The translations under genes were made by a program, and so were the position numbers. The notes beneath the pieces were generated by a model. The model searched no databases. It was not told the DNA's origin and was given only the letters and a program-made list of their open reading frames with translations. A DNA stretch of 64,000 nucleotides from Desulfosudis oleivorans Hxd3 (GTDB lineage: Bacteria; Desulfobacterota; Desulfobacteria; Desulfobacterales; Desulfosudaceae): assembly GCF_000018405.1 (NCBI RefSeq), contig NC_009943.1, positions 3,661,001 through 3,725,000 of the forward strand, written 5' to 3'. Positions 6,198-56,748 of this stretch are shown one piece after another. Within the stretch, counting starts at the first letter, position 1. Every line of letters starts with the position of its first letter.

Positions 6198-7673
6198 ATG
6201 AAGCAGAATGACCATCAGGACCCCCCGCAGGACAAGGACCGGCAGCGCCAGCTGCGACTGCTGCCCGGCGTGGACCGGCTTGTGGAACAACTGACCGGAG
6301 CAGCCGGGCTTGAGACCGTTCCTGTGTCGGTACTCACCGATGCGGCCCGGTCAACCGTGGCCGGCCTGCGGCAGGCCATTCTTTCGGCAAAAAAAGGGCT
6401 TGCCGAAACCGAGCTGGCCATCGACGCCGTTGTGATGCGGGCCGCTCAGGCGGCCCGGACCGCCATGGCGCCCAATTTAAAACCGGTGATCAATGCCACG
6501 GGCGTGGTGATTCACACCAACCTGGGCCGGTCCCCGCTGTCCAGAGAGGCCATCGACCACCTGGTGGCTGTGGCCTCGGGTTATTCCAACCTTGAATTTG
6601 ACCTTTCAAAAGGCGAGCGGGGCATTCGGTACGCCGCCATCGAAGACCTGCTGTGCCGACTGACCGGGGCACCGGCCGCCATGGCGGTAAACAACAATGC
6701 CGGGGCCGTGCTGCTGGCCGTGGAGACCTTTGCCAGGGACCGGGAGGTGATTGTCTCCCGGGGCGAGCTGGTGGAGATCGGCGGGTCGTTTCGCATTCCC
6801 GACGTGATTCGAAAAAGCGGCGCCATCTTAAAAGAGGTGGGCACCACCAACCGGACCCACCTGAAAGATTACGAGAATGCCGTTTCGGAAAAAACCGGCC
6901 TGCTGCTCAAGGTCCACACCAGCAACTACGGCATGGTTGGATTTACCGCCGAAGTCGACCTTGCGGGCCTGGTGGAGCTGGGCCGGCACCGCAACATTCC
7001 GGTGATGCACGACCTGGGCAGCGGCACCCTGATCGATTTTAAGGAGTTCGGCTTTCCCCACGAGCCCACGGTGCCCGAGATTGTTGCCACCGGCGCGGAC
7101 GTGGTCACCTTCAGCGGAGACAAGCTGCTGGGCGGGCCCCAGGCCGGCATGATCGTGGGCAAAAATGAGGCCGTGGCCGCCATACGCGCCAATCCGATTA
7201 CCCGTGCCCTGCGCATCGACAAGCTGACCCTGGCGGCCCTTGAAATGACGCTGCGGGCCTACCGGGACAAACCCGCGGCCATCAGAAACATACCCACCCT
7301 GCGCATGCTGACCGAGCCGTTGGCGGTGGTGGAACAGAAGGCCGCGGCCCTGGCCGATGAACTGAAAAACCTGGATGGTACCCGCCTGGCCGTTGAGCAG
7401 GTACCCCTGGTGTCAAAGGCCGGGGGCGGCTCCCTGCCGTTTCTTGAAATTCCCAGCAGCGGCGTGGCGGTGTCCGTGGAGGGGATTTCAGCCAACCGGC
7501 TGGAAAACCTCTTGCGCGCCGGGAATCCGCCCCTGATCGGCCGGATCGAGCAGGACCGGTTTATCATGGACCTGCGCACCGTTGCGCAATCCGAAATTTC
7601 TGTTATAAAGGAAATTTTTGCCGCCCTGGCAGCGGCGGCAAACGGCTCCGATGGCCATACAAAGGATTGCTGA
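6198..7673 (+). CDS. selA: L-seryl-tRNA(Sec) selenium transferase
   Basis: 491 residues. SelA is a PLP enzyme that converts Ser-tRNA(Sec) to Sec-tRNA(Sec) using selenophosphate. Evidence: an N-terminal helical region with LRLLPGVDRLVEQL, the VINATGVVIHTNLGRSPLS block, SNLEFDLSKGERGIRY, NNNAGAVLLAVETFA, and the PLP-lysine motif TFSGDKLLGGPQAG with Lys309. The length is slightly above the usual ~460-470 because of the N- and C-terminal tails. selB, selC and selD are not in the window. Its presence is directly relevant because a selenocysteine-containing flavoprotein is encoded at 18948-20300. Confidence 0.97.
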   Translation: MKQNDHQDPPQDKDRQRQLRLLPGVDRLVEQLTGAAGLETVPVSVLTDAARSTVAGLRQAILSAKKGLAETELAIDAVVMRAAQAARTAMAPNLKPVINATGVVIHTNLGRSPLSREAIDHLVAVASGYSNLEFDLSKGERGIRYAAIEDLLCRLTGAPAAMAVNNNAGAVLLAVETFARDREVIVSRGELVEIGGSFRIPDVIRKSGAILKEVGTTNRTHLKDYENAVSEKTGLLLKVHTSNYGMVGFTAEVDLAGLVELGRHRNIPVMHDLGSGTLIDFKEFGFPHEPTVPEIVATGADVVTFSGDKLLGGPQAGMIVGKNEAVAAIRANPITRALRIDKLTLAALEMTLRAYRDKPAAIRNIPTLRMLTEPLAVVEQKAAALADELKNLDGTRLAVEQVPLVSKAGGGSLPFLEIPSSGVAVSVEGISANRLENLLRAGNPPLIGRIEQDRFIMDLRTVAQSEISVIKEIFAALAAAANGSDGHTKDC

Positions 7674-18526: not shown

Positions 18527-18844
18527 ATGGCCACGATCAAAATTGCCAACCGGCACCAGTTTCAAGAGGCGATTCAACAGGGCGTTGCCCTGATCGATTT
18601 TAACGCGGCCTGGTGTGCCCCCTGCCGGGCCCAGGCACCGATTATTGAAAAGATCGCGGCGGAACTTCAGGGGAAAGCCCTTGTTGCCGAGGCCAACGTG
18701 GATGACAACATCGACTCGGCAAAAGAATATGGCATTCAGAGTATTCCCACCCTTATTCTTTTCAAGGACGGAAAAGAGATTCAACGGTTTGTGGGCCTTC
18801 AACCCGAGGCCCTGCTGACACAGACGATTCTGCAGACACTCTGA
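18527..18844 (+). CDS. Thioredoxin
   Basis: 105 residues with one thioredoxin fold. The active site W29-C30-A-P-C33 differs from the classic WCGPC by Ala for Gly, which usually shifts redox potential. VALIDFNAAWCAPCRAQAPI, the cis-Pro loop GIQSIPTLILFKDGKEIQRFVG and the C-terminal helix are intact. No signal peptide, so cytosolic. It lies in the sigma-54-controlled operon ~100 bp ahead of the Sec-containing flavoprotein; the two could exchange reducing equivalents (inference). Confidence 0.95.
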   Translation: MATIKIANRHQFQEAIQQGVALIDFNAAWCAPCRAQAPIIEKIAAELQGKALVAEANVDDNIDSAKEYGIQSIPTLILFKDGKEIQRFVGLQPEALLTQTILQTL

Positions 18845-18947: not shown

Positions 18948-20300
18948 ATGAAAAAAGGAGAAAAGCTGGTTATTGTAGGATGCAGCGGCTCCGGCGGGCC
19001 GGCCGCCATGCTGTCGAAAAAACTGATGCCGGAAATTGACATCACCGTGATCCGCAAGGAGCCGTTTTTCATTGTTCGCTGAGCGCTTCCTCACGTGGTG
19101 GCCGGTCTGGCCGCCGATACATCCATTGTGGTGCCGGATAAAAAACTGGAAGACGCCGGCATAAAAGTGCTCCAGGACGAAGTGGTCCAGGTGGATGCCG
19201 CCGGCAAAACGGTGACCCTGGCCGGGGGAAACACAGTCCCCTACGACAAGCTCTACCTGGCCACCGGGTCCCGGTCCTTTGTGCCGCCCATTGAAGGCAA
19301 AGACCTGGAAGGGGTGATGACCCTGCGGGGCATTGAGGACGCAAGACGCATCCGGACATTCCTGACGGAAAAAACACCTCGCCACATTGTTTTTGTGGGT
19401 GCGGGGTTTATCAGCATGGAGACCGCCACCCTGCTGGCCGAGCACATGCCAGGACAGTTTGATATCTCCGTTGTGGAGCTCATCGACCGGCCCCTGCCCC
19501 TGATGCTGGATAAAGACATGGCAGACATGGTCACGGCCTACCTCACGGAAAAAGGGCTAAACCTGCTCACCGGCGAAAAGGTGGAAAAGCTGGCAGGTGA
19601 AAACGGAAAGGTCACGGGCGTGGCCCTGGCATCGGGAAAAACCCTGGACGCGGACATGGTATTCATCAATGTCGGTGTAAGGCCAAACATCGAGCTGGCC
19701 CAGGCCGTCGGCCTGGAAATGGGCCGGTTCGGCATCAAGGTCAACCCGTTTCAGGAGACGTCAAACCCCGATATTCTGGCCGGCGGAGACTGCGTTGAAA
19801 AAATCAACTTCATCACCAAAGCCCCCTGCCCCGGCCAGCTTCGGGGACCGGCGGTGATGCAGGGCCGGGTGGCGGCTAAACGCCTGGCCGGTCTGGATGT
19901 GCCCTTTCCCGGTGTGGTGGATGCCGGGGGATGCAAGATGTTTGACATGACCATCACCGCCACCGGTCTGTCTGAGTCGGCCGCGGCCCGTGAAGGAATC
20001 GAAACCGTCTGCGCCTCGGTGGATTCCCGAAGCAAGCATGCCATGATTCCAGGGGCAAAGGAGAGCCGCATCAAGCTGGTGTTTGAGAAAAAGACAAAAA
20101 AACTCATCGGCGGTCAGATCGTCAGTCACGACATTGCCCCGGCCCGGGCCATTGACACGGTCACGGCCTTTATTCTGGGAGGTAAAACCGTTGCCGACCT
20201 GACCACTTTTACCTCGGCCTGCAACCCGGACATCTCCTCCGAGCCCAGCGCTGAATTTATAACCGTGGCGGCCGAGCAGGCCCTTCAGAAACTGCGGTAA
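18948..20300 (+). CDS. Selenocysteine-containing CoA-disulfide reductase/NADH oxidase-like flavoprotein (TGA read as Sec45)
   Basis: 450 residues if TGA at 19080-19082 is read as selenocysteine. The part before the TGA (MKKGEKLVIVGCSGSGGPAA...) is the FAD-binding Rossmann segment, which a truncated GTG-started reading at 19095 would lack. Downstream are the second GxGxxS/A block HIVFVGAGFISMETATLLAEH for NAD(P)H, VFINVGVRPNIELAQAVGL, ILAGGDCVEKINFI and a C-terminal dimerisation domain. In CoADR/NADH-oxidase/peroxidase relatives a single redox Cys sits at about residue 42-44, in a (S/N)-C-x-x-P context. Here U45-A-L-P occupies that position exactly. A SECIS-like hairpin follows and selA is 11 kb away. 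Likely reaction: NAD(P)H-dependent reduction of a disulfide, persulfide or peroxide; substrate unknown. Confidence 0.93.
19080..19116 (+). promoter_or_regulatory. Bacterial SECIS element after UGA codon 45
   Basis: After TGA (19080-19082), bases 19097-19103 (GGTGGCC) pair with 19109-19115 (GGCCGCC): 7 bp with one G-U pair, closing the loop GGTCT (19104-19108). The GGUCU loop matches the SelB-recognised loop of E. coli fdhF, and the spacing of 21 nt from the UGA is within the bacterial range. Confidence 0.88.
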
Positions 20301-20364: not shown

Positions 20365-21015
20365 ATGGAAACTGTTTCATTTGAGGATATCGCCATTGTC
20401 TCCTGCGGGACCATGAGCCTGGAGTTAAACGCCCTGCGGGACGAAGGGTTTTTAAACACCGACACGATCTACTTTACCACGCCGGGCCTTCACCAGGACA
20501 TTCCGGCCCTTGAAACCCAGCTGGTGGAAAAAATTCACAAGGCAAAGGAGCATAAAGACAAGGTGATCGTGGTCTACGGCGGCAAATTCTGCTATGTCAA
20601 CGTGGATAACCCCCTGCGCAAAATGAGCAACATCATCGAAGAGCAGGGGCCGGGCGTGGGCCGGGTCAACGCCACCCACTGCATGGACATGATCGCCGAC
20701 GAGGCCACCCGGAAACAGCTCGCCCTGGAGCTGGCCGGTGATGAAAATGTCTGGTGGATGACGCCGGGGTGGGTGAAGTTCAAGGACCTGGTGTTCAAGG
20801 GATGGGACAAGGGCATTGCCAACGAGAACTTTCCCAAGCACACCGGCGGCGCCATCGTGCTGGACGGCATCGGGTTCATGGACAAATACATGACGGACAA
20901 TCCGGAGGCGTTTCTCGACTACTGCGACTGGATGGGCATTCCCATGCAGGCCGCGCCGGTAACCCTTGACCGGTTCAAGTCATTGCTGGTAGAACAGGCC
21001 AACGCCCTGGCTTAA
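20365..21015 (+). CDS. DUF1638 family protein
   Basis: 216 residues. It has the DUF1638 pattern: IAIVSCGTMSLELNALRDEGFL, TTPGLHQDIPALETQL, VIVVYGGKFCYV, HCMDMIADEATRKQL, WWMTPGWVKF, and VLDGIGFMDKYM. Conserved Cys (SCG, KFC, HC) and His residues could bind metal. DUF1638 proteins occur in methanogens and anaerobic bacteria, often near corrinoid methyltransferases, but no activity is established. It is probably the last gene of the sigma-54 operon; the 64-bp gap from the flavoprotein shows no terminator. Confidence 0.88.
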   Translation: METVSFEDIAIVSCGTMSLELNALRDEGFLNTDTIYFTTPGLHQDIPALETQLVEKIHKAKEHKDKVIVVYGGKFCYVNVDNPLRKMSNIIEEQGPGVGRVNATHCMDMIADEATRKQLALELAGDENVWWMTPGWVKFKDLVFKGWDKGIANENFPKHTGGAIVLDGIGFMDKYMTDNPEAFLDYCDWMGIPMQAAPVTLDRFKSLLVEQANALA

Positions 21016-54643: not shown

Positions 54644-56602
54644 TCACGCGGCAGCGCCACCTCTTCTGGCCTTCATGCGGTCGCGCAGTCTGGGAAACAG
54701 GTTAATGTCGGTATGGGGCAGAAACAGGGCTGCCATGTAGTGGTCCATGTAGGAGTTGGTTTCGGAAAGCTCGAAGTTGGTCATCTTCTGCACCACCTGG
54801 CCCACGTCCCTGCGAATGCGGTTGGTCAGGGCGCTCATGCGGGCACCCATCAGGGAGCCGTTGCCGATAAAGGTGACCTTTTCCGGCTCGATTTCCGGCA
54901 ACAGGCCGATGGTCATGGCCTTTTCCAAATCGATGTAGCTGCCGAACCCGCCGGAGAGCACGATGCGCGAAATCTGATCAATACCCAGGCCGACCTCGTC
55001 GAGCAGGGTCTGGCTCCCGCTGTAGATGGCGCCCTTGGCCCGAATCAGGTTGTCGATGTCGATCTCGGTGAGCACGATGTCCCGGTCGATGCCGGTGCTC
55101 TCCTTCCACACCACCACGTATTCGTAGATATTGTCCTTATGACGAATGCGCGGATTGTCCAGGTCCTTGTTGATCTGGCCGCCGCTGTCGATGACACCGG
55201 CCTCAAAGAGCTGGGCCACCATGATGATAAGGCCCGACCCGCAGATGCCCACCGGCTTGGTGTTGCCGTGTGTAAGGAGCATGGGCTCCAGGGTTTCCGG
55301 GTCGATGGAAAAATCCTCGATGGCCCCTTTGGCGGCCCGCATGCCGAATGTGATGCCTCCGCCCTCAAAGGCCGGCCCCGCTGAACAGGCGGCGCACACC
55401 AGCCAGTCCCTGTTGCCGATGACGATCTCGGCGTTGGTGCCGATGTCGATGAAAAGGGTCAGCTCTTCGGAACGGTAAAGGCCGGACCCCATGACCCCGG
55501 CCACAATGTCGCCGCCCACGTAACTGGAGATCTGGGGGTAGACCAGGGCCGTGACATGCTCGCCCAGGGCCAGGTCGATATCCCGTGCCCGAATGGGCGG
55601 ATAGAAGGTGGAGGCCGGCACATAGGGCGACCGCCGGATATGCCGGGGATTGACCTCCAGCAGCAGCTGGGTCATGGTGGTGTTGCCGGCCAGGGTGATG
55701 GTGGAGATATTTTCCGGATCCACGCCGGACTGTTTGATCACGGATTTAATGATCTTGTTGATGGTGCCGGTGACCAGGTCGTGGAGTTTTTTCAGCCCGC
55801 CGGGCTTTTCCGCGTGCACGATGCGGGTGATGATGTCCTCGCCAAAGCTGATCTGGGCGTTAAAGTCGCCTTCCCTGGCCAGAATCTCACCGGAGCCCAG
55901 GTCGATGAGCTCGCCGTAGACCGTTGTGGTGCCGATATCCACGGCAATGGCGTAGTTCATGGCCGTGGTATCGCCAGGCTGAATATTGATGACCTGGGTC
56001 TTGCCCCCGTCTTCCCGCACGGGCCGCACCAGGGTGACCGTGACCTTGAAGTCCTGCTCCCGGATCACATCGGGAATCAGACGGATAACAGGCAGCAGAA
56101 ACTCCAGCCGGTGCTCGTCGTGTTTCAGGCGCAGCACATTGACCAGCCGGGTAACGTCCGGCACGTTTTCTCCGGCGTCCGGGGGAGGCAGCTCCAGGTA
56201 CTTCTTTTCCACGGGCGGCACAAACAGGCCCTGGTCCTTGAGCTGCTCGAAATCCATCTGCATGATGCGGGCCGTCTTGCGCGGCACCCGCTGAATGTCC
56301 AGGGCGCTCTTGTCGGACATGGAAGACTCAACGGGAATGCGCACCGTCAGGTCTTCGACCACCTTTGACCGGCAGGCCAGCCGGACCCCGGCGTCAATAT
56401 CTTCCTTGGCCAGTTTTTCCGAAAGCCCGCCTTCCACCGATCCCGACTCTATCACCACCCGGCACTTGCCGCACACGCCTTCGCCGCCGCAGGAGGCATT
56501 AATATGCACGCCCGCCTCCATGGCCGCCTTGATCAGGTTATCGCCTTCGGCTACCTCAACCACCCGCTCGTGGGGCAGAAACTTCACTTTATACGTATTC
56601 AT
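54644..56602 (-). CDS. Reductive activator of corrinoid proteins (RACo-like, 2Fe-2S + ASKHA)
   Basis: 652 residues. 1-85: [2Fe-2S] ferredoxin domain with C38, C44, C47 and C77 (NASCGGEGVCGKC). 90-200: linker/middle domain. 205-650: DUF4445 ASKHA ATPase (NYAIAVDIGTTTVYGELIDL, LAGNTTMTQLLLEVNPRHIR, TLFIDIGTNAEIVIGNRDW, GICGSGLIIMVAQLFEAG, LSGGFGSYIDLEKAM). These proteins use ATP to reduce Co(II) corrinoids back to Co(I) in methyltransferase or acetyl-CoA pathways. No methyltransferase is adjacent, so its target is elsewhere. ATG 56602 has GAGG at -8. Bases 54400-54640 upstream of the island show no gene. Confidence 0.93.
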   Translation of the reverse strand: MNTYKVKFLPHERVVEVAEGDNLIKAAMEAGVHINASCGGEGVCGKCRVVIESGSVEGGLSEKLAKEDIDAGVRLACRSKVVEDLTVRIPVESSMSDKSALDIQRVPRKTARIMQMDFEQLKDQGLFVPPVEKKYLELPPPDAGENVPDVTRLVNVLRLKHDEHRLEFLLPVIRLIPDVIREQDFKVTVTLVRPVREDGGKTQVINIQPGDTTAMNYAIAVDIGTTTVYGELIDLGSGEILAREGDFNAQISFGEDIITRIVHAEKPGGLKKLHDLVTGTINKIIKSVIKQSGVDPENISTITLAGNTTMTQLLLEVNPRHIRRSPYVPASTFYPPIRARDIDLALGEHVTALVYPQISSYVGGDIVAGVMGSGLYRSEELTLFIDIGTNAEIVIGNRDWLVCAACSAGPAFEGGGITFGMRAAKGAIEDFSIDPETLEPMLLTHGNTKPVGICGSGLIIMVAQLFEAGVIDSGGQINKDLDNPRIRHKDNIYEYVVVWKESTGIDRDIVLTEIDIDNLIRAKGAIYSGSQTLLDEVGLGIDQISRIVLSGGFGSYIDLEKAMTIGLLPEIEPEKVTFIGNGSLMGARMSALTNRIRRDVGQVVQKMTNFELSETNSYMDHYMAALFLPHTDINLFPRLRDRMKARRGGAAA

Positions 56603-56748
56603 CAGCACCTCATTTTGTTAATCATAAAGATTGTCCGTGGCTTTTTGCCATGCCGGGTTTTGCCATCCACGATACAACCGGAAAACACAATTTTCAAGCA
56701 AATGCGGGAACAGCGGAATGAGGCCCCGGCCATGTTCCGGAAAAAAAA

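Follow-up and report, generated by a model that had tools for sequence, protein, structure and literature searches.

A putative selenocysteine-containing flavoprotein reductase in Desulfosudis oleivorans Hxd3 and related sulfate-reducing bacteria

The locus analyzed here raises the question whether a TGA triplet inside a flavoprotein gene of Desulfosudis oleivorans Hxd3 ends translation or is read as selenocysteine (Sec), and what kind of enzyme would result in the latter case. The gene is situated in the window, by which we mean the whole stretch of 64,000 nucleotides under analysis, taken from a genome that consists of a single contig of 3.94 Mb. The original prediction regarded it as a hidden selenoprotein of the CoA-disulfide reductase (CoADR) type. 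The features of the locus are compiled in Table 1.

Table 1. Features of the flavoprotein locus and of the surrounding window, with the evidence for each of them.
Feature	Position in the window	Strand	Evidence
selA, L-seryl-tRNA(Sec) selenium transferase, within ORF 6198-7673	6252-7619	+	TIGR00474, 597.3 bits, E 1.7e-179 (contig 3667252-3668619)
Gene for a thioredoxin with WCAPC, its end 103 nt ahead of the flavoprotein start codon; possible partner	18527-18844	+	Pfam Thioredoxin 1.3e-24; TIGR01068 105.3 bits, cut-off 96.8
Predicted selenoprotein gene, 450 residues, FAD/NAD(P)H pyridine nucleotide-disulfide oxidoreductase, NOX/CoADR-like, Sec45	18948-20300	+	ORF; Pfam; TGA in 61/67 genes
In-frame TGA, predicted Sec45, motif R-U-A-L-P-H	19080-19082	+	Cys at the aligned site in Cys homologues
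SECIS-like hairpin in the coding sequence, with GGUCU as its loop (19104-19108)	19096-19116	+	RNA fold; conservation; synonymous-codon and codon-permutation nulls
DUF1638 protein gene, downstream	20365-21015	+	Pfam 1.1e-21

The in-frame TGA and its conservation

The flavoprotein frame extends from the ATG at 18948 to the TAA at 20298-20300 and includes one TGA, at codon 45, which splits the gene as anticipated. Without read-through, the mechanical ORF comprises GTG 19095 to 20300 with 401 amino acids, again in line with the original prediction, and the N-terminal FAD-binding part together with the redox residue is lost. The FAD-binding glycines, G11 and G16, are conserved and are both located in the N-terminal piece ahead of the TGA, where they had been expected. 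The complete protein of 450 residues was matched by the Pfam models Pyr_redox_2 (7.3e-55), Pyr_redox (6.2e-14) and Pyr_redox_dim (6.3e-11), i.e. it shows a layout of two dinucleotide domains and a C-terminal dimerization domain. The features of the NOX/CoADR/Npsr type are thereby present, namely FAD, NAD(P)H and dimerization domains as well as a single redox residue near positions 43-48.

Relatives were collected from 34 loci on genome contigs, by whole-genome searches and from further fetched stretches, and 118 rows were kept after removal of duplicates. A homologue at E <= 0.001 was found in 57 of the 58 relatives' genomes. At E <= 1e-60, 87 of the 389 genomes searched in the order Desulfobacterales gave a match, and at E <= 1e-70, 12 of the 395 searched in the phylum Desulfobacterota did so. 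For the comparison of codon 45, the count was restricted to genes that include the site and are at least 40% identical, the gene of the window among them. Among these 67 genes, 61 have TGA (60 besides that of the window), five have TGT and one has TGC. Cys is also found at this column in all 34 aligned non-Sec rows of less than 40% identity, and in the printed alignments of the solved relatives 6pfz, 3iwa and 6ruz. Hence, the claim that the TGA occupies the position of the redox-active Cys was borne out, both by the six homologues with Cys codons and by the distant rows; a residue other than Cys at this site, which had been named as an argument against Sec, was not encountered in these homologues.

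The near-full-length Sec genes, defined as those spanning at least residues 10-400, number 59 with the window's included, and all of them share F-I-V-R-U-(A/S)-L-P-H around the site, with U-A-L-P in 56 and U-S-L-P in three. Carriers include Desulfosarcina alkanivorans PL12, Desulfoprunum benzoelyticum DSM 28570, Desulfofustis glycolicus DSM 9705 and Desulforhopalus sp. IMCC35007. Judged from these genomes, the predicted flavoenzyme family is common to many sulfate-reducing bacteria. Two loci were left out of the counts, L056, in which the site is not covered, and L154 from the fragmented assembly of genome G379. The latter has the TGA with a frame disruption right after it, and no in-frame N-terminus was recognizable in a three-frame printout; it represents either a pseudogene or an assembly error.

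A SECIS-like hairpin and the machinery for Sec insertion

The loop GGUCU is known from the SECIS element of E. coli fdhF. A SelB-type hairpin with this loop had been proposed to begin at the 14th nucleotide after the TGA, and a hairpin starting at exactly this base is predicted in the window (8-pair stem, arms 19096-19103 and 19109-19116) and conserved across the Sec genes. It resembles the fdhF-type element in its short stem just after the UGA and in its loop, whereas the stem sequence differs. The fold check that had been suggested gave a divided answer, because the hairpin with its GGUCU loop is predicted but the stability of the single fold does not stand out from that of shuffled sequences (z = -0.92), 35 out of 200 of which were at least as stable. 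The case for the hairpin therefore rests on its conservation. The Rfam search of the 64,000-nt window gave no match at gathering thresholds.

Conservation was evaluated with 56 distinct 60-mers out of the 59 Sec genes. The loop reads GGUCU in 51 of them, GGGCU and GGUCA in two each and GGUGU in one. For the Gly in the loop, 54 of the 56 use GGT, a codon that accounts for 484 of the 2504 Gly codons in the remainder of these genes. Base pairing at the five inner positions is seen in 99.3% of the cells versus 76.4% under synonymous recoding (codons drawn from the same genes, 300 draws, sd 1.9, maximum 83.6). When codons were permuted among the sequences, the five inner pairs were formed in 97.2%, and the observed value was reached in none of 500 permutations; for the seven inner pairs it was reached in one of 500. 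Across the Sec genes, conservation is poor for the outermost pairs, for example pair 18-36. In the Cys members L131 and L151, which are nested among the Sec genes, the hairpin is absent from the predicted folds; L131 has lost one and L151 two of the five inner pairs, and both have the loop GGCCU. These comparisons indicate that the hairpin is under selection at synonymous sites.

Collectively, the location of the TGA in the column of the catalytic Cys, its conservation and the conservation of the hairpin at silent sites argue for a selenoprotein, and there is hardly any doubt left that the TGA at 19080 is read as Sec. That the TGA might be a real stop codon, an error of sequencing or the mark of a pseudogene, with a product truncated from GTG 19095, agrees with the start of the mechanical ORF but was rejected as extremely improbable in view of the hairpin nulls and of the TGA shared by 61 of the 67 genes, and such a product would possess neither the N-terminal FAD-binding glycines nor the catalytic residue. 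Since a split selenoprotein gene can easily be taken for a truncated one, database entries for this conserved flavoenzyme may well lack the N-terminus and the active site.

The original prediction also pointed to selA in the window, where it was recovered with a clear match (Table 1), and proposed to look for selB, selC and selD in the genome. All three are present elsewhere on the contig: selB with 373.7 bits, which is over the cut-off, selD with 374.4 bits and an in-frame TGA of its own, and the tRNA-Sec gene (selC) at contig positions 2690342-2690435 with 75.1 bits. As suggested by the conserved sequence, SelB would bind the GGUCU hairpin while the ribosome is at codon 45 and would deliver Sec-tRNA(Sec), which would be made by SelA and SelD, and the UGA would then be read as Sec. 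Since selA is nearly universal in the order (57 of 58 relatives), its presence is a requirement that does not set carriers apart, and co-occurrence with the Sec machinery was dropped as an uninformative test. Among the 54 genomes with a Sec-clade member, a Cys sister or a fragment, 48 have selA; the remaining six (G276, G277, G309, G258, G553 and G725) have assemblies broken into 150-580 contigs.

A second, divergent tRNA-Sec gene was detected on the minus strand at contig positions 3561047-3561140 (L071:1501-1594). It has a UCA anticodon, scores 54.7 bits and carries no encoded CCA. At least two tRNA-Sec matches (E <= 1e-8), of which a single one is strong, were obtained in 8 of the 40 genomes searched, that of D. 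oleivorans included. Upstream of the divergent gene and on the same strand, the ORF L071:1612-1944 looks like a ferredoxin-thioredoxin reductase catalytic chain.

Active-site residues and relation to known Sec flavoproteins

The Sec genes and the two nested Cys members are referred to as the UALP clade in the following, and its sister group comprises L010, L132, L133 and L135, all with Cys. The invariant set of the clade reads R44-U45-x-L47-P48-H49, R299 and K363-H364, with Arg44, Pro48, His49, Arg299, Lys363 and His364 aligned in all 59 Sec members. The residue Trp at position 373 is shared by 58 Sec members, while the window protein has Ser373. Position 49 is occupied by Tyr in the six Cys relatives, i.e. 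the two in the clade and the four sisters, and by Tyr (28) or Phe (6) in the other 34 rows. Tyr49 also occurs in the three rows of other Sec forms with the motif UGxP, hence His49 tracks Sec within the UALP clade and not Sec in general. The 59 Sec, two nested Cys and four Cys sister proteins thus differ jointly at U45/C45 and H49/Y49, which represents a natural experiment. Genome G341 possesses both forms, L141 with Sec and L151 with Cys, which are 55.7% identical, and this pair allows a direct test of the role of Sec; the Cys copy has Tyr49. A cross-subunit pair of Sec with Cys425 was considered as a general mechanism and rejected, because Cys425 is present in 32 of the 57 Sec rows that are ungapped at this position and Gly in the other 25.

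The CoADR of Staphylococcus aureus provides the reference for the class named in the original prediction, and its residues Y361, Y419 and C43 are the mutated ones according to the PDB titles 4eqr, 4eqs, 4eqw and 4eqx. CoADR Cys43 corresponds to Sec45, and the proteins 1yqz (S. aureus) and 4fx9/5l1n (Pyrococcus horikoshii) are near-full-length fold matches. In contrast, Y361 and Y419 have no Tyr counterpart in the UALP clade, with the correspondence inferred from motif alignment and chain offsets rather than by aligning the S. aureus protein itself. No Tyr was found at the aligned positions 366, 367 or 425 in the 59 Sec rows (two of them gapped at 425), the two Cys rows and the four sister rows, whereas Tyr425 is present in 20 of the 34 other Cys rows and in all three UGxP Sec rows. 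TIGR03385 is the best NCBIfam model for the window protein, which scores 252.3 bits and thereby less than half the cut-off of 578.8. Two orthologues of the UALP clade reach 256.2 and 263.8 bits, two UGxP Sec forms 386-448 and a CoADR-like Cys neighbour 404; none of the eight proteins scored for this comparison attained the cut-off (best 447.6). Since CoADR-like proteins with higher scores also stay below it, missing the cut-off is not peculiar to the UALP clade. The lacking CoADR tyrosines and the own invariant set nevertheless indicate, at the level of aligned residues, that the clade is not CoADR proper. The name CoA-disulfide reductase is unsuitable as a functional label, given also the low score and the position of the clade outside the UGxP branch.

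Sec-containing flavoproteins of this superfamily are not new. For Geobacter metallireducens, a Sec "NADH oxidase" appears in the literature from 2006 onwards (PMC1794560), and a count for the Global Ocean Sampling set includes one such protein (PMC2398784). Tables list an "FAD-dependent oxidoreductase (CoA-disulfide reductase, NADH oxidase)" under COG0446/TIGR03385 with the entry WP_011365774.1 (PMC13188914, PMC9312934), which we infer to be the G. metallireducens protein. The known Sec form has the motif UGxP and is filed under TIGR03385 in the same tables (PMC13188914). Hence, the term hidden needs qualification: the protein is most probably a selenoprotein as claimed, but a Sec form of its superfamily had already been published. 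Like the UALP clade, this published oxidoreductase belongs to the superfamily, carries Sec at the site of the catalytic Cys and occurs in Deltaproteobacteria; it differs by UGxP versus U(A/S)LPH. Five other in-frame TGA forms were also observed among our relatives (L089, L090, L091, L092 and L093, at about 1500-1640 in each and in varying orientation), with the TGA at most one residue away from the catalytic column; four of these Sec forms read S-A-U-G-x-P-Y and one S-U-P-T-P-Y.

The relation between these groups was analyzed in a tree of 104 rows, which was built by a quick method, has long branches, retains columns 45 and 49 with Sec entered as X, and does not have the published protein among its rows. 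In this tree, the five UGxP/UPTP-like Sec forms group with Cys forms, and a branch with an SH-aLRT of 100 separates them from the UALP clade. The Sec/Cys label changes five times, at least four of these changes being forced by well-supported branches, with the directions of gain and loss indistinguishable. The separate branches and the all-Cys sister group point to an own Cys-to-Sec event for the UALP clade, so that its Sec apparently originated separately from that of the UGxP-type forms. A single Sec origin of UALP and UGxP forms, followed by losses, appears less likely. L131 and L151 reflect either a reversal from Sec to Cys or a twofold gain of Sec.

Regarding its classification, it is unlikely that the protein is an ordinary Sec CoA-disulfide reductase/NADH oxidase and thus a plain member of the published UGxP family. 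Such a membership would fit the common superfamily and catalytic position as well as TIGR03385 as the best model, which is also used for the known Sec form (PMC13188914), and the cut-off of this model is missed by two UGxP Sec forms and by the CoADR-like Cys neighbour as well. However, the three UALP members remain at 252-264 bits when two UGxP Sec forms score 386-448, and the strongly supported branch between the groups, the motif UALPH and the absence of Tyr at the aligned positions speak against it. In the literature listings and passages searched, we came across no Sec clade that combines UALPH with the absence of the CoADR tyrosines. An earlier listing of the clade under "FAD-dependent oxidoreductase" is quite possible, and whole selenoproteomes were predicted with deep-Sep for several Desulfosarcina genomes (PMC12013277). 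A Sec flavoprotein of the superfamily was already known, and the UALP branch looks separate from it on the basis of the tree. With a probability somewhat short of an even chance, the UALPH clade represents a distinct, so far unnamed selenoenzyme family of sulfate reducers. On this view, an NADH-dependent flavoreductase with a single-Sec site would have evolved independently from enzymes with Cys, an obligate pair of Sec45 and His49 would take the place of the tyrosines of CoADR, and the family would act on a sulfur substrate distinct from those of its relatives.

Possible function and gene neighbourhood

An AlphaFold2 model was calculated from an alignment of 22 sequences, 14 of which belong to the UALP clade. 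Its mean pLDDT is 90.2, with values below 50 at residues 363-365 and 424-433, and these stretches take in the regions of the missing CoADR tyrosines. The best VIA-align match is the persulfide reductase 6pfz_D (Z 47.1, 435 residues, 1.8 A), followed by CoADR 5l1n_A (Z 46.5), NADH oxidase 5vn0_F (45.7) and others within about 2 Z. With top matches that close together, the fold does not choose the substrate. The persulfide reductase Npsr (NoxA-3 of Archaeoglobus fulgidus, 6pfz) is the closest enzyme both by sequence (2.5e-61) and by fold, and it likewise has its active-site residue beside the FAD. It differs in having Cys instead of Sec, 551 instead of 450 residues and an aligned Tyr in a C-terminal AYAPP that is absent here. 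According to PMC7969121, Npsr ends in a rhodanese domain with a sulfur-accepting Cys; no Pfam match to a rhodanese domain was obtained for the window flavoprotein.

By homology, the folded enzyme would be a dimer, in which NADH reduces the FAD and FAD in turn reduces Sec45. No second partner Cys in a CxxxxC arrangement exists for Sec45, so that it would act alone like CoADR Cys43 and form a Se-S selenenylsulfide with the substrate. Likely substrates in an anaerobic sulfate reducer would be a low-molecular-weight or protein disulfide, a persulfide or a polysulfide. From the strict coupling of Sec45 and His49, one may speculate that His49 modulates the selenolate or the leaving thiol, or supplies it with a proton. 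We estimate a probability of roughly 60% that the flavoenzyme is such an NADH-dependent single-Sec disulfide or persulfide reductase; this explanation and its alternatives partly overlap, and their probabilities need not sum to one. If it applies, selenium would be tied to sulfur redox handling in anaerobic sediments.

Quite unlikely appears a role as peroxidase or NADH oxidase, with Sec45 cycling via Se-OH and scavenging peroxide or oxygen. The folds of NADH peroxidase and NOX proteins match with Z of 44-46, and Sec favours peroxide chemistry. However, His10 of NADH peroxidase is catalytic, and at the position that we take to be its equivalent all 59 Sec members have Gly14.

The preferred reading as a disulfide or persulfide reductase overlaps with a further assignment, namely an NADH-dependent reductase of the adjacent thioredoxin or Trx-like protein, i.e. 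an alternative thioredoxin reductase. It would agree with the WCAPC thioredoxin located just upstream in the window and with Trx-like genes nearby in 5 of 65 loci, the window included, but it seems quite unlikely, because no Trx-like gene was detected within the flanks examined in the other 60 loci and two of the five Trx-like neighbours have Ser for the first active-site Cys. These two proteins are encoded upstream of the flavoprotein at L042:3482-3850 and L048:3344-3658 (WSSPC and WSYPC, respectively).

The gene neighbourhoods were compared for the 65 loci, the flanks of which are unequal in length. Recurring neighbours are PAS/sigma-54-type regulators in 15 loci (a single-linkage cluster that may mix families), NifU_N-like proteins in nine, DsrE in six, thioredoxin in five and CGGC in five, where one member each of the latter four families was checked in Pfam. 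No conserved operon was found among the 65 loci and no neighbour is constant. Given these varying neighbourhoods and unequal flanks, the substrate is not fixed by gene context. Nevertheless, the sulfate-reducing hosts and the thioredoxin, DsrE, NifU_N and CGGC neighbours give hints towards a sulfur substrate.

Homologues of the DUF1638 protein are also encoded near the flavoprotein in L039 and L050. In L039, the genes for thioredoxin and DUF1638 adjoin each other 2.4-3.4 kb upstream of the flavoprotein, and in the window they flank it, which hints at a link between thioredoxin and DUF1638. Finally, at 54644-56608 on the minus strand the window contains a match to the AcsV family of corrinoid activation/regeneration proteins (689 bits versus a cut-off of 800), which is located near genes for acyl-CoA dehydrogenase and TRAP transporters.
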